Source of the DNA: Candidatus Nitrospira neomarina
GTDB taxonomy: Bacteria > Nitrospirota > Nitrospiria > Nitrospirales > UBA8639
Length of the DNA: 64,000 bases
Direction: 5' to 3'
NCBI RefSeq assembly: GCF_032051675.1
Contig: NZ_CP116968.1
Location: forward strand, 992,001 to 1,056,000
Shown here: positions 14,833 to 64,000 of the stretch, in pieces
How the letters are laid out: the number at the start of each line of letters is the position of its first letter
Numbering within the stretch: the stretch's first letter is position 1
The notes under the pieces: generated by a model
The model's input: only the letters and a program-made list of their open reading frames with translations
What the model was told of the DNA's origin: nothing
Database searches by the model: none
Made by a program: the position numbers and the translations under genes

Positions 14833-16071
14833 ATGCTACGTGAACTCCCCATCTTAGAAGCTCCAAAGTTATTTGGCAGCCAGGATTATCGCGATGTGTT
14901 GAAGGGGGAAATGGATGCAGGGAAAATACCGTTGAGCCTGGGGAAAGAATGTCCCGTCAAATGTGCATTTTGTTATGAATTAGATCATTCCTACCGAGAA
15001 ACGCTGGATCCACCAAAAACCTCCCAGGAAGACTGGGAGTTTATGTTGAACTATATTAACTCCAAGCCAACAGATCCTCTTCAGTTCTGGTGTCTGGGCG
15101 GGAATGAATATATGGAATGGACCGATTTGTTTCTTCATCCAAAAGCCATGGAGTGGGTCGAAGATTTTTTGAAATTTACCGATAAAAGCATTCAATTTTT
15201 CACAGTTGGTTTTGTCCATGTTCCCAAGATTCATCGATTGGTCGAGCAATATCCCGGGAGAATAAATTTTGAGTTATCCGTTATTACCCTTGGGGAGTAT
15301 AGGCAAAAACTGATGCCGCATGCTCCATCAGTTAAACATCTGATGAAGGTTTTGGATGGCCCTGCAGTTTCCTCTGCAAATTTTTATGCCTTTGATGAAA
15401 ATACGATGTCGGCAGATGCGAAAACGATTTCCAGAATCAATTCCCGGTGTGTACTGTGGATGGGATGTTTGACGCCGGTTGGCGGAATTCAAGAGGCAAC
15501 CAGACGTGTGATGAGGCAAGGTCGAAACTATCTTGCTGTTGAGGCGGAAAAGATATACGATGCCGACCTTCCAAATCTTACGACAATCCATACTGAAGCC
15601 TATGTGACGGCTTTTTTGAACCGAAAGCGAATTATTAGTCTATTTGACTCTTTGGAATTGGAAAAACGGGATTCGGTCGTCATGGCGGGAAGTGTGTATC
15701 GGATATTGTCTATGTTCAGGAAGAATCGAGCCAGGTATCTCCATGTGCCGAATACCACCCTCGGAGGGGATTCTGATTGTACGGTTTTGTTGACCTTAAA
15801 CGACATTGCCAAACGGCTGACAAAAGAGAAATATATTTATGTCCCCCAATGTATTGTGGAGTCTGGAAGAGGTCCGAATCGCGATATTGCCGGGGTTCAT
15901 ATTGACGACTTTGTAAATAAAACCGGAGTGAAGGCGCGGATTTTGCCAAAAATTAGCACGAAGTTTGCCAATAATCGATTATATCGAAATGGGTCCCTAC
16001 AAAATTATGTGGAGGATTATGTGCGTAATCCCTTGGCACGTTCTTATGAAGCGACCTCATTATTAGCGTAA
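14833..16071 (+). CDS. Radical SAM protein, canonical CX3CX2C
   Basis: The cluster motif KECPVKCAFCYE (CX3CX2C) lies near residue 38, close to the N-terminus, followed by a region matching a radical SAM barrel (FWCLGGNEYMEW; INFELSVITLGEYRQKLMP). The C-terminal ~130 residues (YIYVPQCIVESGRGPNRDIAGVHIDDFV) form an extra domain that I cannot name, possibly substrate-binding. The substrate is unknown. It follows the CX4CX2C pair on the same strand with a short minus-strand J-like gene between. The ATG at 14833 is assumed; a TTG at 14782 would add 17 residues, and neither has a strong ribosome-binding site. Confidence 0.8.
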   Translation: MLRELPILEAPKLFGSQDYRDVLKGEMDAGKIPLSLGKECPVKCAFCYELDHSYRETLDPPKTSQEDWEFMLNYINSKPTDPLQFWCLGGNEYMEWTDLFLHPKAMEWVEDFLKFTDKSIQFFTVGFVHVPKIHRLVEQYPGRINFELSVITLGEYRQKLMPHAPSVKHLMKVLDGPAVSSANFYAFDENTMSADAKTISRINSRCVLWMGCLTPVGGIQEATRRVMRQGRNYLAVEAEKIYDADLPNLTTIHTEAYVTAFLNRKRIISLFDSLELEKRDSVVMAGSVYRILSMFRKNRARYLHVPNTTLGGDSDCTVLLTLNDIAKRLTKEKYIYVPQCIVESGRGPNRDIAGVHIDDFVNKTGVKARILPKISTKFANNRLYRNGSLQNYVEDYVRNPLARSYEATSLLA

Positions 16072-16373
16072 AGTTGATAGGAAAATGGGTGATTCAGAAA
16101 TACTGAACTATTAATGAGTTGGAGTTTATATGGTGAAAAGAGTAAGAGGATTGTTCTTTTTTAAAGACAACAATTTGTTCATGTGTGAAAAAAAATGGCT
16201 GATGGAAAAATGGGGGTAGAGGAGTTCCTCGCTTCAAAGGGCTTATGAGGAATGCATGGTGACGGGAGGTCAGTAAAATTTCCCTCTACAGATGAGATAC
16301 CTCCTATGGTTTTTGTGATTTTGAGATTCGTCTAATATATCTTAATCCCACCTAAAATGTTTTCCTGTTGATT
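16072..16373. other. Intergenic region between radical SAM and phzF-like genes
   Basis: About 300 bp of AT-rich sequence without an open frame of note. It presumably holds the promoter of the PhzF-family gene. I see no clear terminator hairpin with a T run. Confidence 0.4.
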
Positions 16374-17306
16374 ATGGATTCTTCTAAAAACTGGCTTCAA
16401 TTTTATCAGGTTGATGTATTTACAAGTGAGCCATTTGGCGGCAATCCTTTGGCAGTATTTCCGTCCCCAGGAGAGCTTAGCGAGCGGGAGTTTCAGCAAA
16501 TTGCGCGTGAAATGAATTTGTCTGAAACGGTATTTGTACTCCCGCCCTCCGATTCCAAGGCTGCGGCCAAGGTGAGAATCTTTACTCCTCTTCAAGAAAT
16601 TCCGTTTGCGGGCCATCCTATTTTGGGAACATTTTATGTGCTTGGGACACTCAAGCATCTTGCCTTGCAGGAGCCCGTGACGAAAGTTTTTTATGAATGT
16701 ACCCTGGGCCTGTATGCGCTTGACCTTATTGTCCTGAAGGGACAAATTGAACAGGTCATTATGTCGCAACCCTCTCCGCAATTTATAGATGTCATCACAC
16801 AGGCGGAGGCTATTTATGATATTGCCAAAGCTTTGGGAATACACAGATCGCTCATTGCCGATACCCTTTTCCCTGTTGAATTGGTATCGACGGGATTGCC
16901 GGTACTAATTGTGCCTATTCGGAGCCTGACAGCCGCAAAATCCATGGAGGTTGATCATTCTGAAGTCTTAGAGATTTGTGCTCGATTTGGGGCTAATGGA
17001 ATTATGATCTTTACAACGATGACGGTGGAGGAAAGCGCCACTGTTCACACGAGAATGTTTGCCGATCCCATTGGTATTTCGGAGGACCCTGCAACAGGCA
17101 GCGCAAGTGGCGCCCTTGGTGCCTATTTAGTCAAGAATGGGGTTGTAGAAGTTGGTCCGACCACTGAAGTGGTTATGGAGCAAGGGTATGAAATTGACCG
17201 TCCGTCCCGTATTTTGGTGCAGATTTTTTCTGATGATGATGTGATTAAAGAAATTAAAGTTGGAGGCCAGGTGGTAATGGTGGCGGAAGGAAAGATGGTC
17301 TATTAG
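16374..17306 (+). CDS. PhzF-family isomerase/epimerase
   Basis: About 310 residues. The family signature is complete: FYQVDVFTSEPFGGNPLAVF at the start, the catalytic Glu in NLSETVF, IPFAGHPILGT, and EDPATGSASGALGAYL near residue 240. PhzF-type proteins fold like diaminopimelate epimerase and catalyse proton shifts on small metabolites; in phenazine pathways they isomerise dihydrohydroxyanthranilate, but no phenazine genes are present. Lying next to three radical SAM genes, it may act on the same unknown metabolite; that link is inference from position. The ATG at 16374 is preferred to a TTG six bases upstream. Confidence 0.85.
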   Translation: MDSSKNWLQFYQVDVFTSEPFGGNPLAVFPSPGELSEREFQQIAREMNLSETVFVLPPSDSKAAAKVRIFTPLQEIPFAGHPILGTFYVLGTLKHLALQEPVTKVFYECTLGLYALDLIVLKGQIEQVIMSQPSPQFIDVITQAEAIYDIAKALGIHRSLIADTLFPVELVSTGLPVLIVPIRSLTAAKSMEVDHSEVLEICARFGANGIMIFTTMTVEESATVHTRMFADPIGISEDPATGSASGALGAYLVKNGVVEVGPTTEVVMEQGYEIDRPSRILVQIFSDDDVIKEIKVGGQVVMVAEGKMVY

Positions 17307-49491: not shown

Positions 49492-50268
49492 TTACCCGGA
49501 AACGGGTGCCTCAATTTCAAGGGACTGTTGGTGGCGGGTAATGGCCTCTACCAACGATGGAATACCTTCTCCGGTTGTGGCGGTCACCAGCAACACCTGT
49601 GGCACCCATTCCCGCAACGACTGAAGGGTTTCGTGCGCGCCGGCATGATCGGCCTTATTGACGACGACGATATGGGCCACTTCCAGGATTCCAGCTTTCA
49701 TGGCCTGCACGTCATCACCAAGACCGGGAGCGACGACATCAACTACCGTTTGGGCTATCTGGGCAATTTCACCCTCTTCCTGTCCCATCCCGATGGTTTC
49801 AATCAACACGACATCAAACCCGGCCGCATCGAGAACGTGAATGGCGTCCTGTGTCGCCAGGGCCAGGCCACCCCGGTGTCCTCTCGTGCCCATGCTCCGG
49901 ATGTAGACACGATCATCCAACGAATGGTGCTGCATGCGAATGCGATCGCCCAGAATGGCGCCGCCGGTTAACGAACTGCTGATATCCACGGCCAGCACAC
50001 CGACCTTTTTCCCTTGTGAGCGATACGCCGTAATCAATTGATCGATCACGGTACTTTTTCCCGCGCCGGGATACCCGGTGATCCCGATAATGCGTGCATG
50101 GCCGGAGAAAGGCTCGAGCCCCTCCAGGACCGCTATTCTTTCCGGCCCATCGGATTCCAACAAGCTAATGGCACGGGAAATTGCTCTGATGTTTCCGGTT
50201 CGGACTTCCTCGATTACGGAGGGAATCGTTAAGAATTTATGTGAGGCCGAGGGGTTCGAACCAGACAT
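49492..50268 (-). CDS. meaB: MeaB/ArgK-type G-protein chaperone of a B12-dependent mutase
   Basis: 258 residues. GTPase motifs: Walker A GYPGAGKS near residue 66, the Mg-binding DISSSLTGGAILGDRIRM, ETIGMGQEE (Walker B/switch) and VVNKAD (the NKxD base motif). MeaB loads or protects cobalamin in acyl-CoA mutases. It is shorter than typical MeaB (~320-330), missing most of the C-terminal dimerisation arm. It overlaps the OB-fold gene by 32 bp and is in the same cluster as both mutase subunits, fitting its role. Confidence 0.9.
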   Translation of the reverse strand: MSGSNPSASHKFLTIPSVIEEVRTGNIRAISRAISLLESDGPERIAVLEGLEPFSGHARIIGITGYPGAGKSTVIDQLITAYRSQGKKVGVLAVDISSSLTGGAILGDRIRMQHHSLDDRVYIRSMGTRGHRGGLALATQDAIHVLDAAGFDVVLIETIGMGQEEGEIAQIAQTVVDVVAPGLGDDVQAMKAGILEVAHIVVVNKADHAGAHETLQSLREWVPQVLLVTATTGEGIPSLVEAITRHQQSLEIEAPVSG

Positions 50269-50734
50269 CGGTCACCTTAAATGTTGGAGCTTTGGCGAAA
50301 CGCGGACGGATCGGTAGCCCAATGTGAACGTGATCAGGTGAAATATTTTTCAGACGGGTGAGAAAGAGGGTGTTCACATTTTTAAATTCCACCAGAGTCA
50401 GGATAAACGGGGTTTCTTTGAGAAAACTTTCGCTACCATAATGACAGACTGTGAAGGTATGGACGCATCCGGTCAGTGGAAGCTTTTCCCATGTGGTGGC
50501 TGCCCCACATTCCATGCAATGAGATCGGGGTGTGGCGTACATATATTGACAGCGTGTACACCGTGATCCCAACAGATCTCCTTTACTCAATCCAACAAAA
50601 AAGGGAGAATCCTGGGCATAACTGTGGCGGTAATCAATGTCGTAGTGGTCCTGGATGATTAATGGATCGACCCCAAAGAGATTGACCCCTTTGTGTTCCG
50701 GCAAGGTTTGTTCTGAGGTTTCGAAGTGTTTCAT
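50237..50734 (-). CDS. DUF35-type Zn-ribbon/OB-fold protein (thiolase partner)
   Basis: About 165 residues. A zinc ribbon (LLGSRCTRCQYMYATPRSHCMECGAA, cysteines CX2C and CX2C) is followed by an OB-fold with FTVCHYGSESF and LTRLKNISP. Members pair with thiolase-like or HMG-CoA synthase enzymes and pass CoA intermediates in a channel. It starts 8 bp after the stop of the thiolase-like gene, supporting a complex. The ATG at 50734 is used; its 3' end overlaps meaB. Confidence 0.85.
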   Translation of the reverse strand: MKHFETSEQTLPEHKGVNLFGVDPLIIQDHYDIDYRHSYAQDSPFFVGLSKGDLLGSRCTRCQYMYATPRSHCMECGAATTWEKLPLTGCVHTFTVCHYGSESFLKETPFILTLVEFKNVNTLFLTRLKNISPDHVHIGLPIRPRFAKAPTFKVTDVWFEPLGLT

Positions 50735-50741
50735 GATGTGG

Positions 50742-52025
50742 TTATGTCCTCTCCAAGATCGACACCGTGATAGAGGTCCCGGTGCCCGCATGACTATGGA
50801 TGAGTCCACGTCGAGGATCGCGAAGTTGTAATGCCGGACTGCCTAAATGCCTCTCGATCGTGTCTTGTAATTGCCAAAATGCAAAGACGGCCTGCATCAG
50901 ACCTGTGGCTCCGATCGGATGGCCGCAGGCCAAGAGCCCTCCGGATGGATTCACGGGGAGTCGTCCTTGGTCCGGTAACGGCAAGCCATACTCAATCCCC
51001 GGCATAAACGGGGTACCCTTTTCAATAAAACTGCCGCCTTCCCCATATTTACACAACCCAAGATCTTCATAGGATTGAATTTCAGAGGAGGTATAGGCAT
51101 CGTGAAGTTCGACAAAGCTTAATTCTTCCAGTGGATTCCGGATGCCGGCCATTTCGTAGGCCAGTTTTGCTGCCATACGCCCCCCGCGATAGGAATGCAC
51201 CCCGGGGTATTTGAGCCGGGCATAATCGGATTCCTGCTCGTGCGGAAGCAGCGGAACTTTTCCATGCGGCCGGTCAGCCATGCGCATGGCATCTGACCCT
51301 GAGCCTATGCCGGTGATGTGCACCGGCCGGTCACAGACCTGTTCCGCAATGGTTTCGTCCGCCAGAATGCAGACGGCTGCTCCATCGGACATGGTGCAGA
51401 TATCTTCCATGGTCAATGGGGTGGCCACCATGGGCGATTCCCGAACCTGTTTGACGGTGAGCCGTTTCGCTTTTTGCGCATAGGGATTGTACAGAGCATT
51501 CAGATGATTTTTGACGGAGACCATGGCCATCTGTTCAACCGTGGTGCCAAATTCATGCATATGGCGATTGACCATCATGGCATAGTACCCGCTGTAAAAC
51601 CCTCCAACCGGAAAGTCGAAATTCGTATCGGAAGCCAACGCAATAAATTCGTTCCCTTTCCAGGTGTTGACCCGGGACATGGTTTCAAACCCGAAGGCGA
51701 CACAACAATTCATCCGCTCCGAAGCAATCGCTTCCCAAGCCGATTGGAAACACAACCCTCCCGTGGCCCCGCCCCCTTCGACGCGTTTGGAGGGTTTGGG
51801 ACATAGGCCCAGATAATCGTGTGCCATGCTGCCGGCCATCGATTGGCGGGTGAAATGATCTGAAAAATAGGAGCCGACCCCTCCATCGATCATGTCTTTC
51901 GATAATCCGGGTACGTCCTGGAGGGCGGCGTCATAGGCTTCTTTGACCATCAGACGAAAATCTTTTTCCGGATGGGCTTTGGCGAATTTTGTGATCCCGC
52001 CGCTGATCATATAGACGGGTCTCAT
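50742..52025 (-). CDS. Thiolase-superfamily protein without the usual nucleophilic Cys
   Basis: 427 residues with SCP2-thiolase-like motifs: [39 protein letters not shown] and [11 protein letters not shown]. Where catalytic thiolases have (N/E)xxC[AS]SG, this one reads [11 protein letters not shown] (about residues 82-92), so a Gly takes the Cys place; Cys92 is out of register. It might act in carbon-carbon bond cleavage (as in the Ltp2-type aldolases that also use a DUF35 partner), not as a true acetyl-CoA thiolase. A canonical thiolase is separately encoded in the cluster. ATGA overlap with icmB. Confidence 0.8.
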
Positions 52026-52423
52026 CGGGGCAGTCCTTTCACGAATTCCACAATGCGTGACATCGAGGTGCCGGGAGGGAACAGGGCCCGCACACCGGTT
52101 TCCATTAGAGGGCCGACATCATCAGAGGGGATAATGCCTCCACCGAAGACGGCAATATCCTCGGCATGATGCGTTTTCAGTAATTCCAGGACCCGTGGAA
52201 ACAGAGAGGTATGGGCACCGGAATGAATGCTGAGGCCTATCGCGTTCACGTCCTCTTGAATGGCGATATTGACGACCTGCTCGGGGGTTTGGTGCAACCC
52301 GGTATAAATGACCTCCACGCCGGAGTCTCGCAGGGCCCGGGCTACCAGTTTCACGCCGCGGTCGTGGCCATCCAAACCAACCTTTCCGATCAGGACTCGA
52401 ATGGGCGTCGTTGCTGTGGTCAT
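52022..52423 (-). CDS. icmB: B12-dependent acyl-CoA mutase, small (cobalamin-binding) subunit
   Basis: 133 residues, the usual size of a small mutase subunit (IcmB ~136). It carries [21 protein letters not shown], whose DXHXXG His is the lower cobalt ligand, then [18 protein letters not shown] and VFGGGIIP. It binds adenosylcobalamin with the large subunit encoded at 53418-55085. ATGA overlaps tie it to the MBL gene before it and the thiolase-like gene after it. Named for isobutyryl-CoA mutase because of the large subunit's active-site residues; MCM small subunit is the alternative. Confidence 0.88.
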
Positions 52424-53274
52424 GCTGTTCTCGCTTCCTCTGCAGGTTTCAAGAAATATTTGCCTTCCGGGTCTTTGTGGACGTACCCCATCTCAATCCG
52501 GGGGTCATGTTCGAAAATCAGGAGCCATCCTTCCTCGTAGGCTTGATCGAGAATCCATCGTTTGGTTTCCAGCGTCTGTAGCGGAAAGAGGTCATAGCCC
52601 ATAATATAGGGGAGGGGCAGGTGAGAGACCGTGGGAATACAATCACCTAAAAAGAAGGCCGTGTGTCCTTCGGATTCAATCTTGACGCTTTGGTGGTATT
52701 TGGTATGGCCGGGGGTGACCACCATTGAGACACCGGGAAGCCACTCGGTCGTGCCTGTGACAAACTCACATTGGTGATGTTCCAGAATAGGAATGAAATT
52801 TTCCTGACGGTAACTGGCCTTGGTCCGTTCATTCGCCTTGATGGCATCTTCAAATTCTCCGCGTTGCACCAGATAGCGTGCCATCGGAAACGTCGGGATC
52901 GTCCGTCCTTTTTCATCACACCGCGTGTTGCCTCCGGCATGATCGAAATGAAGATGGGTATTGATCACCATATCGATATCCTTCGGGGCAAGGCGGTAGT
53001 GGTGTAAGGCATCATGAAGCGAAGAGGATTGATCCACGGCAAACATTCGATGAAATTTTTTGTCTTGTTTTGAGCCCAGTCCCGTATCGACGAGGATGTT
53101 CTTCCCATGTGCCTGAATCAGCAGACAGGTCAAGCTGAGCGGGATGCGGTGGTGATCGTCGGCCGGACAACATTTCTCCCAGATTACCCTGGGAACCACC
53201 CCGAACATCGCTCCGCCGTCAAGCCGGAACCGGCCGTCTGTCACAGGATAAATGTTAAATTGTCCAAGTTTCAC
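52420..53274 (-). CDS. Metallo-beta-lactamase-fold hydrolase
   Basis: 284 residues with the binuclear metal motif [13 protein letters not shown] near residue 105, VDTGLG before it, and TPGHTKYHQ and GDCIPT after it. Members hydrolyse lactones or thioesters; here, encoded between the two mutase subunits and overlapping icmB by ATGA, it may hydrolyse an acyl-CoA (thioesterase-like glyoxalase II type) or a lactone. The substrate is unknown. Confidence 0.85.
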
Positions 53275-53417
53275 AGGATTGGTCCCTTCTGTGTTGAGGA
53301 AAAGGGTTTTCGGCTACAGGAATATTGGTGAAATCCGTCTGCCGGTTTGCTCTGTGACCTCCTTACGGATCAAGTCCTGAAGGCCAACATGGCTTGTGGT
53401 CCTCAGGCTGAGACAAC

Positions 53418-55085
53418 TTATAAGACAACCGGTTCACGATAGGTTCCAAAGACTCCCTTTAAGGCTCCACATATTTCTCCCAATGTGGCCCTGGCTTTGA
53501 CGGCGTGCATCAGGTGTGGCAACAGATTTTCGCCGGATTGTGCGAACCATTGAATTTCGTGAAGCGCTTCAGCCACTTTCTTGGGGTCCCGGTTGGCGCG
53601 AAACGAACGTAAACGTTCCCGCTGATACTGTTCGACTTCCTTTCCGATTCGCAGGGTGGGAATGGTGTACTGCTCCGACTCAACGTACTCATTGACCCCG
53701 ACGATGATACGTTCTTTCCGTTCGATTTCCTCCTGGTAGTGCTGGGACGCTTCCAGAATCTCTCGTTGTGGGAACCCTCGTTCGATGGCGGCCAACATGC
53801 CTCCCATGGCATCCAGCTTGCGAAAGTATTCGCGGGCACCTTCTTCCATCCGGTTGGTGAGGTGCTCAATAAAGTAGGAACCGGCCAGAGGATCAACCGT
53901 GTTGGTGACCCCGCTTTCATGAGCAATGATTTGTTGGGTACGTAACGCCAGCGTCACAGCCTCCTGAGTGGGCAGAGACAGCGTCTCATCCATGGAATTG
54001 GTATGCAGTGATTGCGTGCCGCCGAGCACGGCTGCCAGAGCCTGAAGGGTTGTGCGCACCACATTGTTCATGGGTTGTTGCGCCATGAGGGAACAGCCTG
54101 CTGTCTGGGCATGGAAGCGGAGCTGGAACGAGCGTGGATTGTTGGGGTGGTATCGGTCTTTCATCTCCTGCGCCCACACGCGTCGTGCCGCTCGAAACTT
54201 GGCAATTTCCTCAAAAAAGTCGTTATGCGAATTAAAGAAAAAGGACAGTTGTGGGGCAAAGGCGTCAATCGGCAATCCTGCCTGAACGGCGGCTTCGACA
54301 TAGGTCAGCCCGTTATACAGGGTAAAGGCCAGTTCCTGCACGGCGGTGGATCCGGCTTCCCGGATGTGATACCCGCTAATGCTGATGGGATGCCATTTCG
54401 GCACGTGTTCACTGCAGTAGCCGATGGTGTCCGTGATCAACCGCATGTGGGGTGCAGGGGGGAACAACCATTCTTTTTGTGCGATATATTCTTTGAGGAT
54501 ATCGTTTTGCAGGGTGCCATTGAGCCGAGTCAGCGGGATGCCTTGCCGTTCAGCCAGAGTGAGATACATGGCGAATATCACGGCGGCCGGGCCATTGATC
54601 GTCATGGAGACCGATACCCGATTCAAAGGGATTCCGTCGAAGAGTGTGGCCATGTCTTCCAAAGACGAAATTGCGACCCCACAATAGCCTACCTCCCCAA
54701 GAGCCTGCGGATCATCTGAATCCAGGCCCATGAGGGTCGGCATATCAAACGCGACGCTCAGACCGGTTTGTCCCTGATCCAGGAGATATTTGAAACGGGC
54801 GTTGGTGTCATGAGCCGTCCCGAACCCTGCGAATTGCCGCATCGTCCATAGCCGACTGCGGTACATCGTCTGGTGAATCCCACGTGTGTAAGGAAAGTCT
54901 CCAGGATGCCCGAGGTCACGTTCAGGATCCCAATCTCTGAGGTCTTCCTGCGTATATTGTTCGGCAATCGGCAGTCCGGACAAGGCCGTACAGGGCGTCT
55001 TCCGGTCCTGAGGATAATGAGAGGCCGGACGTTTTTCAGCCGAATCCTTCTGATGGACCACCGGTGAATCGTGAGCAATCTTCAT
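53418..55085 (-). CDS. icmA: B12-dependent acyl-CoA mutase, large subunit, isobutyryl-CoA mutase-type active site
   Basis: 555 residues; a barrel mutase large subunit ([59 protein letters not shown]). The substrate residues differ from methylmalonyl-CoA mutase: P. shermanii Tyr89 aligns with Phe85 and Arg207 with Gln203; the spacing (118 residues) and His244/His240 match exactly. IcmA has this Phe/Gln pair. So isobutyryl-CoA to n-butyryl-CoA is predicted. Lacks the C-terminal B12 domain, supplied by icmB. The ATG at 55085 follows AGGA; the longer 605-aa reading lacks support. Confidence 0.88.
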
Positions 55086-55108
55086 GGCGTCATATCCTGA
55101 CAAGGGGG

Positions 55109-55972
55109 TCAAGGTTGATAGGTGTAAAATCCTCTTCCTGACTTTCGACCCAACCAACCCGCCTCGACATATTTTCGAAGAAGCGGACACGGGCGAAACT
55201 TTTGATCGCCGAATTCTTGATATAAAATTTCGCAAATGTTGAGCACGGTATCCAAACCGATACGATCGGCTAAGGCCAGTGGGCCTACAGGGTGGTTGGT
55301 GCCATAAGTCATGGCCTTGTCGATCATGTCGACGGTCGCGATGCCTTCGGCTAAGGCAAAAATGGCTTCATTGACCATCGGCATGAGCAGGCGATTGACA
55401 ATGAAACCCGGAGAATCTTTGGATTCCACCACAACTTTTCCCATGCGGTCGGCAAGTCCGGCGAGAAGCGAGATGGTCTCATCGCTGGTTCGCAAACCTC
55501 GAATGAGTTCGACCAATTTCATGACTGGGACCGGATTCATAAAATGCATGCCGGCGACCTGAGCGTCTCGCCCCGACATGGCCCCCAGTTTTGTGATGGA
55601 TATCGAGGAGGTATTGCTGGCCAGGATCACCTCCGGTTTGCAGATTGCGCCAAGCTCTTGGAACAGCTCGCATTTCATTTCAAAATTTTCGGGGGCGGCT
55701 TCCAGGATCAGGTGACGATCAGTCATATCCCCGAGGGATTGGGTGGTCCGGATTCGTTTTAAGGCCGCTTCGCCCTCCGAAGCCGGGATGATGCCATCCT
55801 GAATTTGTTTGGCGAGTCCCTTGTGAATGCGTTCAAGAGCGGCTTCCAGGGATCCGGTGTGGATATCGTAGAGGAAGACCTCACAGCCTGCGAGCGCAGA
55901 TACGAACGCAATGCCCGCACCCATTTGGCCGGCTCCTACGACACCAATGGTTTGTATGGCCTGTGATGGCAT
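55109..55972 (-). CDS. hbd: 3-hydroxybutyryl-CoA dehydrogenase
   Basis: 287 residues; NAD-binding [14 protein letters not shown] at the N-terminus, [29 protein letters not shown] (catalytic His and Glu), [18 protein letters not shown], and [15 protein letters not shown]. It oxidises (S)-3-hydroxybutyryl-CoA to acetoacetyl-CoA, the step before thiolase, whose gene lies 56 bp upstream on the same strand. Strict homologue of PaaH/Hbd; not fused to an enoyl-CoA hydratase. Confidence 0.95.
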
Positions 55973-56028
55973 GTACGCTTCTCCTCCAGTCCAAACCGAA
56001 ACGTGATCGGGGGCGTGAATACCATGTG

Positions 56029-57219
56029 CTAGGGCATGCGTTCGATCACGACAGCCAGGGCCTCGCCTCCACCAATACAGAGACTGGCAAGCCCCAAACG
56101 GCCACCTCTGGCTTCCAGTGCGTAGAGCAGGGTGGTCATCATCCGTGCGCCGGTAGCTCCGATTGGATGGCCAAGCGCCACGGCACCTCCGTTCACATTG
56201 ACTTTTGCCGGGTCCAGGTTGAGTTCCCGGTTAATGGCGAGAGACACCGAGCTAAAGGCTTCATTGATTTCAAAGAGATCAATCTGCTCGATGGTCAGAC
56301 CTGTCTGCTTCAGAACTTTTTGGATGGCGTGAACCGGGGCGATGGTAAACCACTCGGGTGCTAATGCGGCGCCGGCATACCCGATGATTCGTGCCAACGG
56401 TTTGATGCCATGGCGTTCGGCCTCTCTTTCTTCCATCAGGACAAGGGCTGCCGCACCGTCATTGCAAGATGGGGAATTGCCGACCGTCAGCATGCCGTCT
56501 TCTTTAAACACGGGTTTCAAACTGGACAGTTTTTCAAGATTGACACGATTCGGTTCCTCATCGTCGGTCACGAGAATCGGCCCGCCTTTTTTTTGAGGCA
56601 CTTCGACGGGTACGATTTCCTGTTTGAAGGCACCGGTCGCGATGGCCATGCGGGCCCGGCGATAGCTTTCAATCGTAAAGTCATCAAGGGCCTTCCGGCT
56701 GAGTTGATACTTGGACGCACAGAGTTCCCCACCCTGACCCATGTGAAAATCGTTATAGACGTCCCAGAGGCCATCCTTGATCAGGCTATCGACCAGTTCC
56801 CCATGACCAAGCCGATAGCCTTGTCTGGCCCTGGTCAAGAGATACGGGGCGCCGGTCATGCTTTCCATGCCTCCGGCAACCAGAATGCGGGCTTCTCCCA
56901 ATTTAATGGCCTGAGTGGCCATAATGATGGCCATAAGACTGGACCCGCAGACCTTGTTGATGGTGGTTGCGCCCACCGAGTCGGGCAGGCCGGCTCCAAG
57001 CGCGGCTTGCCTTGCGGGTGCCTGTCCGAGTCCGGCAGCCAACACGCAACCCATATAGACCTCGTCCACCAACGCCCCTGACAGGTGAACCCGATGTAAG
57101 CTTTCGGCAATGGCCAGACTTCCAAGTTTCGTAGCGGGAACCGGGCTGAAGACGCCCTGAAAGCTTCCCATGGGAGTGCGGACCGCGCTCACAATGACCC
57201 CGTATTTGGTCTCAGTCAT
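56029..57219 (-). CDS. atoB: Acetyl-CoA acetyltransferase (thiolase II)
   Basis: About 396 residues with canonical catalytic residues: TINKVCGSSLMAI (nucleophile Cys), [18 protein letters not shown] (His), and ASLCIGGGEALA (second Cys). It cleaves acetoacetyl-CoA to two acetyl-CoA. Its ATG overlaps the stop of the E2 gene (ATGA), and GGAGG lies eight bases upstream, so translation is coupled. The ATG at 57219 is chosen over one 15 bp earlier for that reason. Confidence 0.95.
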   Translation of the reverse strand: MTETKYGVIVSAVRTPMGSFQGVFSPVPATKLGSLAIAESLHRVHLSGALVDEVYMGCVLAAGLGQAPARQAALGAGLPDSVGATTINKVCGSSLMAIIMATQAIKLGEARILVAGGMESMTGAPYLLTRARQGYRLGHGELVDSLIKDGLWDVYNDFHMGQGGELCASKYQLSRKALDDFTIESYRRARMAIATGAFKQEIVPVEVPQKKGGPILVTDDEEPNRVNLEKLSSLKPVFKEDGMLTVGNSPSCNDGAAALVLMEEREAERHGIKPLARIIGYAGAALAPEWFTIAPVHAIQKVLKQTGLTIEQIDLFEINEAFSSVSLAINRELNLDPAKVNVNGGAVALGHPIGATGARMMTTLLYALEARGGRLGLASLCIGGGEALAVVIERMP

Positions 57220-58391
57220 GAGGTGACCTCCCATGCCGGTTGTTCCAGGACAGATTTCACCATGAGCATAAATTGATCGGCTGTGGCTCCATCGATGACC
57301 CGATGATCAAAGGCAAGGCTCAAGTAGGCCATGGAGCGAATTTCAATGGACTCGTTCACGACTACTGCTCGCCGCTGAACAGCGCCAACGCCAAGAATGG
57401 CGATTTGCGGTTGGTTGATGATCGGGGTGCTGAAGAGGCTGCCGGTCCCTCCATGATTGGTGATGGTAAATGTCCCTCCTTGGACTTCCTCGGGCTGGAG
57501 TTGTTTGCTTCGTGCCCGTTGAGACAGATCGGCGACTTCCGTACCCAATTGCCGAAGATCTTTTTGATCGGCATGCTTGATGACTGGAACCAATAATCCT
57601 TCTTCTACGGCGACAGCTATACCAATATGAACGGCATGCTTAATGATGAGACCTTTGGCAGACCAGGAGGAATTGAGAATCGGAAAGGCGTGAATCCCCT
57701 GCGTGACCGCTTTGATCACAAAAGGCAGATAGGTCAGATGCAACTCCTGTCTGGTGTGTTCGACTGTTGTGAAGTCGGCTTCAAAGAACGTCACCACGTG
57801 GGCTGCGGTCTGTCGACTCTTGACCATGCGTTCCGCAATTGTTCGTCGCATGGAGCTCAGCGGAATTACCTCTTCTTCAGGGGAAGAGGTCACTGATGCG
57901 GGCTGTCCCTTTAGCGACTCGCCGGACTCTTTTCCGGCCAGACCTTGTTTGTCCAGAAATTCCAGAATGTCCTTTTTGGTAATCCGTCCATTCATGCCTG
58001 TTCCGGTGATGAGGCTGAGGTCCACCTGGTGCTTCGCGGCAAGGTCTCGAACAGCCGGTGAGAGGAGGTCAGGGGATCCTGAGATTGTTGAGTGGCCGTG
58101 ACCGGACGATACCGGAATTGTGCTTGTCGCGGAATCACCGTTTCCGGATTCGGAATGGTAATCGAGTCGCGCAAGAAGGGTGCCCACCGGGACCGTTTCC
58201 CCTTCCTGAATCAAAATCTCGGTTAAGGCTCCGGTCGCCGGGGAAGGAATATCCAATGCGACTTTATCGGTTTCCACCTCTAACAGGGAATCATCTTTTT
58301 TTACCTGGGCCCCCAGCGGAACGAGCCATTTCACGATGGTACCTTCGGCAATGCTTTCACCTAACTGCGGCATGACGATGTCGGTGGCCAT
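57216..58391 (-). CDS. 2-oxoacid dehydrogenase E2 (dihydrolipoamide acyltransferase)
   Basis: 391 residues. One lipoyl domain (about 1-78, lipoyl Lys in VETDKVALDIP), a linker, a peripheral subunit-binding domain (about 110-145, LLSPAVRDLAAKHQVDLSLITGTGMNGRITKKDIL) and a catalytic domain with FDHRVIDGATADQF (His-Asp catalytic pair). It forms the core of the complex with the two E1 subunits. E3 is not encoded here and must come from elsewhere. BCKDH is favoured over pyruvate dehydrogenase because of the IcmA neighbour, an inference. Confidence 0.93.
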   Translation of the reverse strand: MATDIVMPQLGESIAEGTIVKWLVPLGAQVKKDDSLLEVETDKVALDIPSPATGALTEILIQEGETVPVGTLLARLDYHSESGNGDSATSTIPVSSGHGHSTISGSPDLLSPAVRDLAAKHQVDLSLITGTGMNGRITKKDILEFLDKQGLAGKESGESLKGQPASVTSSPEEEVIPLSSMRRTIAERMVKSRQTAAHVVTFFEADFTTVEHTRQELHLTYLPFVIKAVTQGIHAFPILNSSWSAKGLIIKHAVHIGIAVAVEEGLLVPVIKHADQKDLRQLGTEVADLSQRARSKQLQPEEVQGGTFTITNHGGTGSLFSTPIINQPQIAILGVGAVQRRAVVVNESIEIRSMAYLSLAFDHRVIDGATADQFMLMVKSVLEQPAWEVTS

Positions 58392-58410
58392 GAATTACTC
58401 CCCTGTGTAC

Positions 58411-59403
58411 TCAATAGGCCGCCAATTGGCGGGCGGCGGTGATGACGTCATGAGCGTTCGGAAGAAAAAAGTCCTCCAGCGGGGGACTATAGGGCACGGG
58501 AATATCGGGGGCTGCGATCCGCATAATCGGCGCATCAAGTGCGTTGAAGCATTCTTCAGCCAGGATCGCAGCAATTTCACCACCGATTCCTCCGGTCTTC
58601 GTATCTTCGTGGAGAATAATCACTTTCCCCGTTTTTCGAACCGAGTCTTTGACGGTGTCGGTATCAAGAGGGCTCAGGGTGCGAAGATCCACGACTTCCA
58701 TGTCGATCCCTTCCTGATCCAAGGCCTCGGCTGCCTCTAATGCCACGTGGACCATGGCTCCATAGGTGATGACGGAGATCTCGCTTCCTGTCCGTTTGAT
58801 CTCGGCTTCCCCGATCGGGACGATATACTCTTCAGCAGGAAGCACCTCCTTCACGCGCCGGTACAAAAATTTATGTTCAAAATAAATGACGGGGTTATGA
58901 TCCCGGATCGCGGCCTTCAACAATCCTTTGGCGTCATAAGCAGTTGAGGGCGCCACCAGTTTCAACCCGGGGGTATGAAAGAACCAGGCTTCCGGGCACA
59001 CGGAATGGAAGGGCCCTCCATGAGTCCCTCCCCCGAAGGGTGCGCGGATGACCAGAGGCACCTCTGCTCCCCAGCGATAGTGATTCTTGGCGGCCATCTC
59101 GGTAATTTGATCGAACGCACAGGAAATGAAATCCGCAAATTGCATTTCAACCACGGGTCTCATGCCCATCATCGCCGCTCCAATTGCGGCGCCGACAATT
59201 CCGGATTCCGCCAGAGGGGTGTCCAGCACTCTCCATTCACCATACTTATCTTGAAACCCTTCCGTGACACGAAATGCCCCGCCGTAAGGGCCGATATCTT
59301 CTCCCATCAGGAAGACCCGTTCATCCTGGCTCATTTCTTCATCAAGGGCTTGGGAAATGGCTTCCAGATAGGTCACTTCATGTGTGATAGCGGATGTGGT
59401 CAT
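58411..59403 (-). CDS. 2-oxoacid dehydrogenase E1 beta subunit
   Basis: 330 residues. Motifs: VFLMGEDIGPYGGAFRVTEG, DTPLAESGIVGAAIGAAMMGMRPVVEMQFADF, and SVCPEAWFFHTPGLKLVAPSTAYDAKGLL, ending in FDAPIMR-like NALDAPIMRIAAPDIPVPYSPPLE. It holds the pyrimidine of ThDP with E1 alpha. It begins ATGA-overlapping with E1 alpha. No visible residue fixes the 2-oxoacid specificity. Confidence 0.95.
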   Translation of the reverse strand: MTTSAITHEVTYLEAISQALDEEMSQDERVFLMGEDIGPYGGAFRVTEGFQDKYGEWRVLDTPLAESGIVGAAIGAAMMGMRPVVEMQFADFISCAFDQITEMAAKNHYRWGAEVPLVIRAPFGGGTHGGPFHSVCPEAWFFHTPGLKLVAPSTAYDAKGLLKAAIRDHNPVIYFEHKFLYRRVKEVLPAEEYIVPIGEAEIKRTGSEISVITYGAMVHVALEAAEALDQEGIDMEVVDLRTLSPLDTDTVKDSVRKTGKVIILHEDTKTGGIGGEIAAILAEECFNALDAPIMRIAAPDIPVPYSPPLEDFFLPNAHDVITAARQLAAY

Positions 59404-60383
59404 ATCAGTACCTCCACGGGATTAGCCGCAAAGACGCCTTCCAACGCTTCTGAACCCTCCGGAAGAGGGCTTTGTTCCGCGAACTCCAAGGCGGATTCAA
59501 TTTCCTTTTCAACCCTCATATGAATTTCCTGAAATTCGGGTTGACCGGCATACCCCAATTCTTTCAGCCGACGTTCCGCCTTCAGAATGGGATCTTTCTT
59601 CTTCCACTCCTCCAAGAGTTCTCGAGGCACATATTTGGCGGAATCATGCTCCGAATGCCCGTGCATACGCATGGTTTTGCATTCGATAAAGGTGGGACCC
59701 CCTCCGTTCCTGGCACGTTGAAAGGCCCGTTGTGCCGTCAGAAAGACGGAGGCGACATCGTTTCCGTCCACAATTTCACCGGGTATGGCATAGGCTTTTG
59801 CTCGTTCGACGACATCTTTGATGGCCATCTGATGGTGAAGAGGGGTGGAGTAGGCGTACTGGTTGTTATTGCAAAAGAACACCACCGGCAGCCGGCGAAC
59901 GGACGCGAAGTTCAACGCTTCATGAAAATCTCCCCGACTGGTCCCTCCATCTCCTGTATTGGCGGCGACAATACGGGATTCACCGCGCAGCTTAAACGCC
60001 AGAGCCACTCCGGTCGCAACGGGAAGATTGTCAGCCAGATGACTGACAAAGGCGATGATGCCACGTTTCAGGTCGCCCATATGCACGTTGCCGTCCTTTC
60101 CTTTGGTGGGTCCGGTGCGTTTGCCAAGATATTGCGCTAAGACTTCACCCGGCGTAATGCCTCTGACTAAGAACGCGCCCATATCCCGGTGGAAGGGGGC
60201 GATAATGTCATCGGTCTGAAGGGCGGAAGCATAACCCACCGAAATCGCCTCCATTCCATGGCTGGTGTATGCACCACCGACGATGCGACCTTGCCGATAC
60301 AAAGTGGTCACTCGTTCCTCCAACGCTCTGGTGAGTTTAAGGAAATAATAGAGGTGGAGAAATTCAGATTGTGAAATCTCCAT
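59400..60383 (-). CDS. 2-oxoacid dehydrogenase E1 alpha subunit
   Basis: About 327 residues with ThDP and Mg motif GDGGTSRGDFHEALNFASVRRLPVVFFCNNNQYAYSTP (GDG...NN type) and the phosphorylation-loop-like RMHGHSEHDSAKYV. It decarboxylates the 2-oxoacid and acylates lipoyl E2. The ATG at 60383 has AGGAGA eight bases upstream and is preferred to one at 60407. First of the dehydrogenase genes; the acyl-CoA synthetase gene ends about 100 bp before it. Confidence 0.95.
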   Translation of the reverse strand: MEISQSEFLHLYYFLKLTRALEERVTTLYRQGRIVGGAYTSHGMEAISVGYASALQTDDIIAPFHRDMGAFLVRGITPGEVLAQYLGKRTGPTKGKDGNVHMGDLKRGIIAFVSHLADNLPVATGVALAFKLRGESRIVAANTGDGGTSRGDFHEALNFASVRRLPVVFFCNNNQYAYSTPLHHQMAIKDVVERAKAYAIPGEIVDGNDVASVFLTAQRAFQRARNGGGPTFIECKTMRMHGHSEHDSAKYVPRELLEEWKKKDPILKAERRLKELGYAGQPEFQEIHMRVEKEIESALEFAEQSPLPEGSEALEGVFAANPVEVLI

Positions 60384-60486
60384 AACACTCTCCTTTTGTC
60401 TAGACATGAATAGTTATCCTCTTGTTGGTCATTGGGTGTGGTATGGGTGATACGTTATGTCACTCTCCTATTCGCTGACGACCTCC

Positions 60487-62226
60487 TCAAGCCGTCTGAT
60501 GCTTTGGAGTTGAGCCGCGTTGCACAGAGCGGAATTGGACGTCGCAATAGCGTGCCAATGCCGAGCTCAACCTCGCCTTTAACTCCAAACGTTTGGGCTT
60601 CCCCGTTGTCGTATAGGGCACTTCCTGGCCAAACATAAAGACCTTGGGACACTTGGCAAAGGGCAATGTCTTGCGGCACCATGTGACCATTTCATCTTCC
60701 GAAGGTTGCGGCATATGTTCTTTGACCACGAGGTATCCGGCAATTTCTTCTCCGTAGAGACGGTTTTCGAATGAAACGGCCATACCGAATTTGACGGAAG
60801 GGTGTTTTCTGAGTACTTCATCAATTTCCAAGGGTGATATATTCACACCCCCGCGGATGATTAATTCCTTCAGTCGCCCGGATATGAAAAAATACGGGCG
60901 ATCAGCCTGATCACGAACGAAGAACCCCTCATCTCCCGACCGGAACCATCCCCACCGGAAACTTTCCTCATTCGCATCCGGTCGTTTCAAGTAACCTGAA
61001 CACACCGTTTGTCCGCGGATACAAATTTCCCCCCTTTCCATCTCGCCGACCGGTTGTCCCTGGGGATTGAGAATCGCCATGTCGTTGTAAGGAATGGCGA
61101 GGCCAATGGATGGATAGTCATAGTCCGTGAGCCAGTGCCTGTGTTCTTGTGCGGAAAGGTTAACGGGGAGAAAACTGGCATAACACGTGGTTTCAGATAG
61201 TCCGTACCCATGACGAACCGGAGCATGAAATTGATGCTCAAACCGTGACACCGTGTCCTTTAGGAGAGGGCCGGCCCCGCAAATCAATCCTTGAAAATGG
61301 TCAAGCCGGTATTGCCGGTTATCCCGAGCTCCTTCCAGCAGGAACTCCAGAATGGTAGGGACCACGCTCACGCAGGTAACCCCTTCATCCTGGATTCGGT
61401 TCCAAAACGCGGACTGACGAAAACGCCGGTTCAGCACGGACCTGCCCTGTCCGTAAAATGGGGTGAGGAGTGTGACAACAATTCCGTTCACATGATGGAT
61501 CGGCAGCACACACATGAGGCAATGACCTTTTTCCAATCGGTGCCATTTTGCAATGCCGTGGGCATCGACGAGAAGATTTTCAATCGTGAGCACGACTCCT
61601 TTCGGCGGTCCCGTCGTTCCGGAGGTGTAGACAATCAATGCGTCATCCTGGAGAGCAGCTTGATCGAGAGTTCCGTGGTTGTGTGTTTGAGCTGGGCGAG
61701 GTTGACCCATCATGTTCATGAGCGGTGAGGTTCCATTCCCGAGAGAGACGAGATGCCGAAGATGGGGGAGTCGATTCCGGATATCCTGGAGGGCTTCGTA
61801 TTCGGTTCCCCAGCAAAAGGCCACGCAGGCCTCTGAATGTTCCAGAATGTAGGAGCGGCGGTCTTCGGTTTCATTGATATCAATCGGCACCACCACGGCT
61901 CCCAGGACCCAGGCGGCATAATACATCACCACAGTAAAGTCATGATTAAACAGCAGGGTGGCAATGCGATCGCCCCGTTGGACCTCCAGTTGCTCACGCA
62001 GGAAGGTCACGGTTCGATTGACGGCGTTTCCGAATTCCTCATAGGTATAGCTTCGAACCATTCCGGAATCGTCGTAATATGTTAAGTACACCTCTTTCCT
62101 CAGTGCCGGATCGGCCACCCGCTGCTGAAAAAAATTCGCAAACGAAGAATAGGGGATTTCGAGGAGCGGGTTTTCGTTCCGATGGGCCTCTTGAATATGT
62201 TTATTCAAGGAAATCGTTTCAATCAT
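60487..62226 (-). CDS. AMP-forming acyl-CoA synthetase (ANL superfamily)
   Basis: 579 residues. Adenylation signature LIVYTSGTTGPPKGVVLT (about residue 210), HGYGLSETTCYASF, DEGFFVRDQADRPYFFISGRLKELIIRGGVNISPLEID, and the C-terminal catalytic Lys in TTTGKPKRLEL. It activates a carboxylic acid to acyl-CoA. The substrate is unknown; branched or short-chain acids such as isobutyrate would fit the neighbours. GAGGG is nine bases before the ATG. The upstream HDO gene ends 85 bp before. Confidence 0.9.
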   Translation of the reverse strand: MIETISLNKHIQEAHRNENPLLEIPYSSFANFFQQRVADPALRKEVYLTYYDDSGMVRSYTYEEFGNAVNRTVTFLREQLEVQRGDRIATLLFNHDFTVVMYYAAWVLGAVVVPIDINETEDRRSYILEHSEACVAFCWGTEYEALQDIRNRLPHLRHLVSLGNGTSPLMNMMGQPRPAQTHNHGTLDQAALQDDALIVYTSGTTGPPKGVVLTIENLLVDAHGIAKWHRLEKGHCLMCVLPIHHVNGIVVTLLTPFYGQGRSVLNRRFRQSAFWNRIQDEGVTCVSVVPTILEFLLEGARDNRQYRLDHFQGLICGAGPLLKDTVSRFEHQFHAPVRHGYGLSETTCYASFLPVNLSAQEHRHWLTDYDYPSIGLAIPYNDMAILNPQGQPVGEMERGEICIRGQTVCSGYLKRPDANEESFRWGWFRSGDEGFFVRDQADRPYFFISGRLKELIIRGGVNISPLEIDEVLRKHPSVKFGMAVSFENRLYGEEIAGYLVVKEHMPQPSEDEMVTWCRKTLPFAKCPKVFMFGQEVPYTTTGKPKRLELKARLSSALARYCDVQFRSVQRGSTPKHQTA

Positions 62227-62311: not shown

Positions 62312-63079
62312 TCATCGCGCATCTCCGAGTGTGACATGCCTGTTCCTGGAATGCGCCCCGTGATGGTTGGGGATGTTCATCGTGCGTTGACGCTCAAGAC
62401 CCATCCAGAACCCCTCTAAATAGTTCAGAACCTGTCGGACGCCGTCGTGAAAATCCTGTTGCTCCTGAACAGAGAGTGTCCCCTGAGCAGAGCCATGTCC
62501 TTCCATGGCCGCAACTGCATGCACCATGGCTTCCTCATGAGTGGATTCCAGTTCACGATGGAAGGTGAAATACCTCATATCAAGGTCGGGAAATCTTTGA
62601 CGACGCAAAGCCTGTAAGCCGGGAATGAGGTGATCCCACATGGTAATTGCCATGTTTTCCAGGCCAAATGAAGCTCCCATGGCTTGTTCATGGAGTCCGC
62701 TGCTGTACAATTCTTCCAACCCCTCAATATAGGCCCGGGTAGAAGGCATCATCGGTGTAGTCAGGGCTTGATGAAGATCGATGTCGAGGGAACGCAGGAA
62801 ATGCCGATAGAGCAACTCATGTCTGTTCTCAGGATTTCCCTCCCCTAATTCTGAGTACAAAACCCGTGTCAATTCCTCCGCTATGGATTCGTCCTCGGTG
62901 TTGACCAGTTGTGCGACAAGAATTTTTGGAAAGAACCGGGCAAAGTTATAAAACTCCACTGCAAACGCATAGAGTTCTTCATCGGATGCGACACCCTTTT
63001 TAAACCAATTTAGGTAAGAGTTGTTAATGGCACCATGATGAAGTACGAACTCCCGCATCTCCCGATAAAATCCTGACAT
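62312..63079 (-). CDS. Heme-oxygenase-like diiron (HDO) oxidase/oxygenase
   Basis: 255 residues. All six expected HDO ligands are present: EX6H (ELGEGNPENRHELL), a Glu (ASFGLENMAIT), and HX3EX2H (TFHRELESTHEEAM), the pattern of the diiron CADD/UndA/SznF-type enzymes. Such proteins oxidise fatty acids, amines or amino acids with O2. Located just upstream of the acyl-CoA synthetase gene on the same strand, it may act on a carboxylic acid or its CoA ester; unconfirmed. Contrast the homologue at 2288, which lacks the last ligands. Confidence 0.83.
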   Translation of the reverse strand: MSGFYREMREFVLHHGAINNSYLNWFKKGVASDEELYAFAVEFYNFARFFPKILVAQLVNTEDESIAEELTRVLYSELGEGNPENRHELLYRHFLRSLDIDLHQALTTPMMPSTRAYIEGLEELYSSGLHEQAMGASFGLENMAITMWDHLIPGLQALRRQRFPDLDMRYFTFHRELESTHEEAMVHAVAAMEGHGSAQGTLSVQEQQDFHDGVRQVLNYLEGFWMGLERQRTMNIPNHHGAHSRNRHVTLGDAR

Positions 63080-63394
63080 GGTGGCCTCCTTAATCGGAAC
63101 CTATAAGTAAGTCCAATTCCAGTAGCTTTCTGTGGTGATTGCCAGTCATGAATTAAATGATAAAATGTTATTATCATAATAAAACTTTTATAGATAACAA
63201 GCAATGATTGCATATAGTAAGGATATTGTAGGGACCATTTTAATTGATAATTTAATAAAAGATTGCCAATGATTATTTTTTAATGGTAAGTTATAATTAA
63301 TTTGCTGGCTAAGGCTAATGACAGACCGGACGACACTGAGATTTATGAGGTCTGCAGGAGCCGTTTCATATTCCTGATAGGGAAGGAGAATCCA
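63080..63394. other. AT-rich divergent intergenic region
   Basis: About 315 bp between the HDO and VOC genes, strikingly AT-rich (poly-A/T runs). It must drive both genes. A regulatory inverted repeat is listed separately, and a second short palindrome-like GCAATGATTGC is at about 63202. No clear promoter boxes. Confidence 0.45.
63157..63177. promoter_or_regulatory. Inverted repeat, candidate operator
   Basis: Perfect 7-bp arms ATGATAA (63157-63163) and TTATCAT (63171-63177) separated by seven bases, in the divergent promoter of the HDO and VOC genes. The 24-bp repeat near 38774 has similar TGATAA/TTATCA-type arms, so the same regulator might control both sites; this is a speculation. Confidence 0.4.
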
Positions 63395-63946
63395 ATGGGT
63401 GACACGGTTGGAATTGATCACATTACCCTTTGTGTGAATGATCTTCATGCTGCCGAACACCTGTTTAACAACATTCTCGGTTTCCGAACGATCTGGTCTG
63501 CCGATGATGTGGGATCCGACAGATCTAGCATGGACACCATTGTGGTTCAGCGGAACAACATTCGAGTGGCCCTTATGCAAGGCCGGGATAAAACCGGGAA
63601 ATCACAGATTACGGAGTTTGTCGAACGGTTTGGGCCAGGCATTCAGCATGTCGCGTTGGAAGTGGACGACATCGAAACCGTGTGCCAGGAATGGGAAGCC
63701 CATGGCGTGAAATTCAGCGGACCCGTAAAAGAAGGTCGGGATGGATTCGGTCCGCTCCGTCAGCGTTTTACGTATCCCCTTTTTCCCGGCAGTGGAATTT
63801 TCTTCGAATTGACTCAGCGTAGACAGGGACAGGAGGAGTCAAAGACTTTTGTGAAGAGCACGGTCGAGTCCTTATATCAGGATATTGAGCGGGATCAAAC
63901 GCAGGGCGTCGAACAGACCATTATTGATTTTGGGCATATCCCCTAA
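63395..63946 (+). CDS. VOC-family (HPPD-like, glyoxalase/dioxygenase) protein
   Basis: 183 residues. Two VOC beta-alpha-beta units: GIDHITLCVNDLHAAEHLFNNILGFRTIW (first metal His), then GPGIQHVALEVDDIETVCQEW (second His) and GSGIFFELTQRRQG (Glu). The 2-His-1-Glu triad and the VVQRNNIRVAL strand resemble 4-hydroxyphenylpyruvate dioxygenase N-terminal/C-terminal halves, but it is half that size. Could be a dioxygenase, isomerase or epimerase. GGAAGGAG before the ATG at 63395 decides the start. Divergent from the HDO gene. Confidence 0.8.
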   Translation: MGDTVGIDHITLCVNDLHAAEHLFNNILGFRTIWSADDVGSDRSSMDTIVVQRNNIRVALMQGRDKTGKSQITEFVERFGPGIQHVALEVDDIETVCQEWEAHGVKFSGPVKEGRDGFGPLRQRFTYPLFPGSGIFFELTQRRQGQEESKTFVKSTVESLYQDIERDQTQGVEQTIIDFGHIP

Positions 63947-64000
63947 GCAAGCATGGCCATAGCGGATTCATGCTGACAGAAAGGACCCCCATGTACTTAA

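Follow-up and report, generated by a model that had tools for sequence, protein, structure and literature searches.

A heme-oxygenase-like diiron protein (HDO) of Candidatus Nitrospira neomarina is very probably part of a homogentisate-type module of aromatic amino acid catabolism, and its link to that module across the Nitrospirales is strong. The gene lies in a stretch of 64,000 nucleotides (the window) within a 4.80 Mb single-contig genome. Our interpretation starts from five observations, namely, the fold, the conservation of metal ligands, the fixed gene linkage, the co-occurrence across genomes, and the absence of PF00351. From these it can tentatively be proposed, at somewhat less than an even chance, that HDO is an O2-activating diiron oxygenase of aromatic amino acid catabolism, plausibly a pterin-free phenylalanine hydroxylase. 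About a dozen HDOs have been characterized, and a 2026 review describes them in natural-product or cofactor biosynthesis (PMC13108848); the protein analyzed here is tied to a degradative pathway across an order of nitrite-oxidizing bacteria. A catabolic HDO would be new to the superfamily, and the homogentisate context narrows the possible substrates to a short list.

Fold, metal ligands, and relatives of the protein

The open reading frame occupies exactly positions 62312-63079 of the minus strand, starts with ATG, and encodes 255 amino acids. Over 60 orthologues are 58-96% identical to it (96% for the nearest named relative, from MAG NPIRA03), so that it is not a chance frame. The protein matches PF14518, "iron-containing redox enzyme" (E 1.8e-24; 87 bits, cut-off 28.9), and its AlphaFold model is confident (pLDDT 87.6), of the seven-helix type, and related by Foldseek to known HDOs at E 2e-7. 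The best structural matches are HrmI, BesC, and CADD (VIA Z 24.8-26.1), followed by weaker matches to UndA, FlcD, RohS, PolF, and AetD; the fold is common to the model and UndA (4wwj), for example, at Z 22.5 and 12% identity.

The sequence-only reading described a complete EX6H/E/HX3EX2H pattern, and most of that pattern stands. In an alignment of 19 orthologues and three remote homologues, H87, E141, H174, E178, and H181 are invariant, the last three forming the HX3EX2H motif (H174-X3-E178-X2-H181), which fits the HX3(E/D)X2H pattern of core helix 3 in the superfamily. The glutamate of the EX6H element is the exception: position 80 is Asp in 15 of the 19 orthologues and thus varies between Glu and Asp, whereas E77, spaced EX9H from H87, is invariant. 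E77 also aligns by sequence with the corresponding Glu of BesC, while CADD aligns nearer position 80, and the first carboxylate ligand may be E77 rather than E80. With either residue, the alignment indicates a complete set of three histidines and three carboxylates. By modeled fold and aligned ligands, the protein is placed in the HDO superfamily, as had been claimed, and is predicted to be a diiron, O2-activating enzyme that would be expected to load iron.

HDO falls outside those characterized families that could be checked by profile. It scores 55.6 bits against the BesC equivalog NF042919 (cut-off 500) and 45 bits against TIGR04305 for CADD/PabS (cut-off 200), so that neither family assigns a reaction, in keeping with the earlier suggestion of a new one. 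BesC, the 4-chloro-allylglycine synthase (7twa), is the best solved relative by sequence (E 1.1e-14). Its fold matches along almost the entire length (Z 26.0, 212 residues aligned, rmsd 1.9) and its ligand types are the same; it differs in its low identity of about 22% and in its role, as BesC serves amino acid natural-product biosynthesis and HDO sits in a catabolic module. HrmI, an L-lysine N-oxygenase (9nh9), is an equally good structural match (Z 26.1, 222 residues aligned), but is only 15% identical, carries about 115 extra N-terminal residues, and performs N-oxygenation in biosynthesis.

Resemblance to the self-sacrificing p-aminobenzoate synthases CADD and NePabS (1rcw, 8va9, 9pj4) extends to the fold (Z 24.8, among the nearest), to the pattern of three histidines and three carboxylates, and to the sacrificial tyrosine itself, as Y22, present in 18 of 19 orthologues, aligns with CADD Tyr27. 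The amine-donor position, Lys152, is instead matched by L151, an invariant leucine, and the profile score given above lies far below its cut-off. The gene context also differs, HDO is confined to genomes with HmgA and does not occur in all, and the genome encodes two chorismate-binding proteins of the PabB/TrpE type. We consider the chance of such an identity to be negligible and rejected it on the missing lysine donor and the presence of PabB/TrpE-type genes.

A further comparison concerns aromatic residues. Seven of them, F43, F46, F50, W148, F171, F210, and W225, do not vary across HDO and the remote HDO, and the i,i+4 spacing of F46 and F50 is that of F44 and F48 in AetD (8tww), residues in contact with the side chain of tryptophan (PMC11611611). 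AetD shares the fold (Z 18) and acts on an aromatic amino acid, converting Trp to a nitrile, although it is only 12-13% identical and serves cyanobacterial toxin biosynthesis. The match between the two Phe pairs, in auxiliary helix 2, was drawn from residue offsets and is suggestive only.

Gene neighborhood and co-inheritance

To place HDO in context, 60 orthologous loci were retrieved, and counts for the divergent operon refer to those with enough sequence. A divergent VOC gene stands opposite HDO in 56 of 57 testable loci; in the lone exception, L062, the upstream sequence covers just 1.3 kb and includes an intervening regulator. The divergent operon then carries an HmgA-like gene (54/54), a FAH-like gene (53/53), and a PRTase-like gene (49/49). 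The fixed partner of HDO is therefore this operon of VOC protein, HmgA homologue, FAH-family hydrolase, and PRTase-like protein. In most loci, a conserved distance of about 200-400 bp separates HDO from the VOC gene. In the window, the intergenic region (63080-63394) is 315 bp long with 34% GC, and a promoter scan of it returned promoter-like matches on both strands that were not significantly above chance.

The acyl-CoA synthetase and the VOC protein that the sequence-only reading had placed beside HDO are both there, the former an AMP-forming ligase (60487-62226, minus strand; PF00501, E 3.7e-71) directly downstream after a gap of 85 bp and the latter at about 63395-63946 on the plus strand. 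The idea that these neighbors could make or consume the HDO substrate fared unevenly in the proposed look at homologous neighborhoods: the VOC protein may share the pathway, but an orthologue of the ligase lies downstream of HDO in only 4 of 53 loci. In 27 of 60 loci an unrelated ligase takes that position, and in 17 of 60 the gene there encodes an XRE-type regulator. The ligase is thus a lineage-specific neighbor and is ruled out as the defining partner of HDO. These counts bear on whether HDO could be a biosynthetic enzyme, forming an alkene, an N-nitroso group, or a modified lysine with the adjacent synthetase serving it. An AMP-forming ligase of any kind does follow HDO in 31 of 60 loci and BesC is its nearest solved sequence, but the ligases belong to different families, the invariant partners are catabolic, and no biosynthetic cluster genes were seen. 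We regard this reading as very improbable; as the VOC protein is an HPPD-type barrel that opens an operon with HmgA and FAH homologues, the context points to aromatic amino acid catabolism and not to alkene or N-nitroso biosynthesis.

Beyond the ligase, the minus strand of the window carries 2-oxoacid dehydrogenase E1alpha, E1beta, and E2 genes (57216-60407), a thiolase with a 3-hydroxybutyryl-CoA dehydrogenase (55109-57234), which could handle acetoacetyl-CoA, and the large subunit of methylmalonyl-CoA mutase (53418-55235), listed as a TTG frame whose true start probably lies inside it. In most Nitrospira, the genes of the 2-oxoacid dehydrogenase, the thiolase, the 3-hydroxybutyryl-CoA dehydrogenase, and the methylmalonyl-CoA mutase instead extend the divergent operon, and 40 of 44 loci have E1alpha at the distal end of VOC-HmgA-FAH-PRT. 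In the lineage of the window they lie on the side of HDO; there the operon, as read from sequence, runs on into prpD, prpB, and prpC. We also observed that the mutase reads as split (49492-55235, minus strand) into a large subunit, a B12-binding subunit, and a MeaB-like GTPase, with a lactonase-like metallo-beta-lactamase of the YtnP family between its subunits (52420-53274, minus strand; 211 bits against 425). Two propionyl-CoA routes accordingly flank the module, the split mutase and the genes read as methylcitrate-cycle prpD-prpB-prpC (L091/L092, past the window).

Co-occurrence agrees with the linkage. Among 98 Nitrospirales genomes, 27 have both HDO and HmgA orthologues, 69 have neither, and two have HmgA only (Fisher p 4e-22, not corrected for phylogeny). 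Both HmgA-only genomes break at contig ends: in G004 a contig of 3784 bp ends 56 bp past the VOC match, before HDO, and in G063 the contig starts within HDO, so that the sample holds no clear case of HmgA without HDO other than at contig ends. At genus level the module is present in 12 genera and absent from 11, and one genome (G064) has the whole module in a genus otherwise lacking HDO and HmgA. Nitrospira moscoviensis (L040) is among the carriers of the module. In a phylum-wide sample of 158 genomes, HmgA was found in 16, all of them already known HDO carriers, and no HmgA without HDO was found elsewhere in the phylum. As co-inheritance as one cluster gives the same pattern, co-occurrence shows a functional unit and not a step; linkage and co-inheritance together show that HDO shares a pathway or regulon with the module, not which step it takes.

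It could also be that HDO is an accessory of the module, removing a toxic intermediate such as an oxidized homogentisate product, sensing or supplying iron or O2, or acting as a metal-binding regulator. HDO is divergently transcribed and lies outside the HmgA operon, and the related PqqC/TenA folds have non-diiron roles. Against this, neither the 19 aligned orthologues nor the remote family has lost the diiron ligand positions, which argues for catalysis, and we judge an accessory role to be decidedly unlikely.

Components of the homogentisate-type module

The VOC protein (63395-63946, plus strand; 183 amino acids) appears to be a single-barrel "half-HPPD". It matches TIGR01263 (E 1.9e-26), although at 93 bits against a curated cut-off of 277, and it matches HPPD structures in the PDB; it has one barrel where full-length HPPD, at about 360 amino acids, has two. 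In alignment with full-length HPPD, the His/His/Glu ligands (H9, H85, and E138, invariant in 21 sequences) and the SQI, GIQH, and FFELTQR motifs are common to both, while half-HPPD has no N-terminal barrel and lacks a loop segment in its C-terminal barrel. Its model is of moderate confidence (pLDDT 70, low at the C terminus) and shows one barrel, with hydroxymandelate synthase and HPPD as its nearest structures. By this alignment, the protein corresponds to the catalytic, iron-binding C-terminal barrel of 4-hydroxyphenylpyruvate dioxygenase, and it may form homogentisate. It is conserved throughout HDO-bearing Nitrospirales and, as no full-length HPPD was found elsewhere in genomes with an HDO orthologue, it is the only HPPD candidate there. 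HPPD is a herbicide and drug target, so a one-barrel form is of interest in itself.

The next gene encodes an HmgA-like cupin of 375 amino acids, which starts at 63970, passes the window end at 64000 on the plus strand, and spans 15970-17097 of locus L091 (G000:C1:1040001-1060000). It scores 81 bits against a curated HmgA cut-off of 511, with PF20510 and PF04209 above their cut-offs. A FAH-family hydrolase (L091 17082-18077; PF01557) follows, and this protein and the HmgA homologue are both distant from the curated families. The fourth gene in every module tested encodes the PRTase-like protein, here of 262 amino acids (L091 18074-18862, or G000:C1:1058074-1058862), which has weak pyrE similarity, no Pfam match, and a C-terminal CPNC.

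Judged by homology, the operon would be a homogentisate-type module with a reduced HPPD. Like the established pathway of pterin-dependent phenylalanine hydroxylase, HPPD, HmgA, and FAH, it has HPPD-like, HmgA-like, and FAH-family genes; unlike it, its HPPD is cut to the catalytic barrel, HDO is always attached, and neither a phenylalanine hydroxylase nor a maleylacetoacetate isomerase was found with it. The isomerase was not detected in the genome of the window at all, and the pathway may consequently depart from the textbook route. The HDO/half-HPPD version of the module encodes no obvious electron donor. A separate, differently ordered cluster with full-length HPPD occurs in three genomes (G032, G034, and G039) and ends in a remote HDO of about 27% identity; it further contains FAH, an HmgA homologue (about 36% identical), a flavin reductase, a thiolase, and an AMP-forming ligase with an acetyl-CoA-synthetase N-terminal domain.

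Candidate reactions for HDO

Breakdown of phenylalanine to fumarate and acetoacetate has three oxidative steps in the textbook pathway, phenylalanine hydroxylation, HPPD, and HmgA. As the latter two have candidates in the operon, phenylalanine hydroxylation has none, and an O2-activating HDO is always attached, we propose that HDO oxidizes an aromatic amino acid or keto acid. The pterin-dependent phenylalanine hydroxylase family, PF00351, was absent from all 98 genomes, whereas a Caulobacter control was found. Since many bacteria break down tyrosine without a phenylalanine hydroxylase, this absence alone demands no replacement.

The proposed module would run from HDO to half-HPPD, the HmgA-like ring-cleaving dioxygenase, the FAH-family hydrolase, and finally the thiolase and acyl-CoA enzymes for the C4 products. 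HDO would most likely work upstream of half-HPPD, with an aromatic amino or 2-oxo acid as its target, and that its substrate is an aromatic amino acid or the keto acid derived from one comes just short of an even chance. Among the possible reactions, 4-hydroxylation of phenylalanine (or of phenylpyruvate) is the first candidate. The substrate would be bound to Fe1 through its carboxylate, and oxidation of the ring by way of a peroxo-diiron(III) species would stand in for the missing pterin-dependent enzyme. HDO lacks the Biopterin_H fold of PF00351 and could be a functional stand-in only. Taken by itself, phenylalanine 4-hydroxylation, with this regiochemistry, is possible but doubtful. To our knowledge, no characterized HDO hydroxylates an aromatic ring. 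Searches for literature linking heme-oxygenase-like enzymes to homogentisate or to a diiron phenylalanine hydroxylase gave no matches, and titles and abstracts on Nitrospira with homogentisate or tyrosine degradation held nothing apparently relevant.

The main rival follows from the geometry of related enzymes. In AetD and PolF, the amino acid chelates Fe1 and the C-alpha and C-beta, rather than ring C4, lie near the cluster (PMC11611611, PMC12614342), which favors chemistry at the root of the side chain over ring chemistry. HDO could in that case attack the amino, alpha, or beta position of tyrosine or of the corresponding keto acid, as AetD, PolF, and UndA do, for example, by oxidative deamination, decarboxylation, or N-oxygenation, within a variant module whose half-HPPD takes an unusual substrate. 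The missing barrel and loop segment of half-HPPD, the distance of the HmgA-like and FAH-like proteins from curated families, and the lack of a detected maleylacetoacetate isomerase would all suit such a variant. Conversion of tyrosine to 4-hydroxyphenylpyruvate, however, normally takes just a common aminotransferase, and as the three genomes with full-length HPPD also have an HDO, an altered HPPD substrate is unnecessary to explain its presence. We consider tyrosine-directed oxidation unlikely.

Returning to phenylalanine hydroxylation, the fullest form of the proposal is that pterin-free hydroxylation of phenylalanine or phenylpyruvate by HDO opens aromatic catabolism in the Nitrospirales together with a one-barrel HPPD, which would make it the first degradative and the first ring-hydroxylating HDO; we think this improbable as a whole. 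If HDO does open phenylalanine and tyrosine breakdown, it would represent a new reaction in the superfamily and a pterin-independent entry to homogentisate, and it would explain amino acid use by chemolithoautotrophic nitrifiers.

Outside the phylum, a plasmid search returned relatives of only 22-33% identity (Kovacikia, Gloeothece, Burkholderia, Pantoea, and Scytonema), and homogentisate genes were absent around those on the Gloeothece and Burkholderia plasmids. The Gloeothece verrucosa plasmid relative, 33% identical to the remote HDO, belongs to a row of genes (L116 8902-11797) that also encodes a 2OG-Fe dioxygenase and a cysteine-desulfurase-like enzyme, likely a small biosynthetic cluster. 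Within the Nitrospirota, many genomes carry a separate HDO/TenA-like family, 25-29% identical (L106 9785-10606, L107 7725-8456, L108 8930-9661, L109 9274-10005, L113 9733-10434, L114 9806-10528, and L115 9437-10159), which in these loci always adjoins a protein of about 494 amino acids that contains a methyltransferase domain, the two forming a conserved pair.
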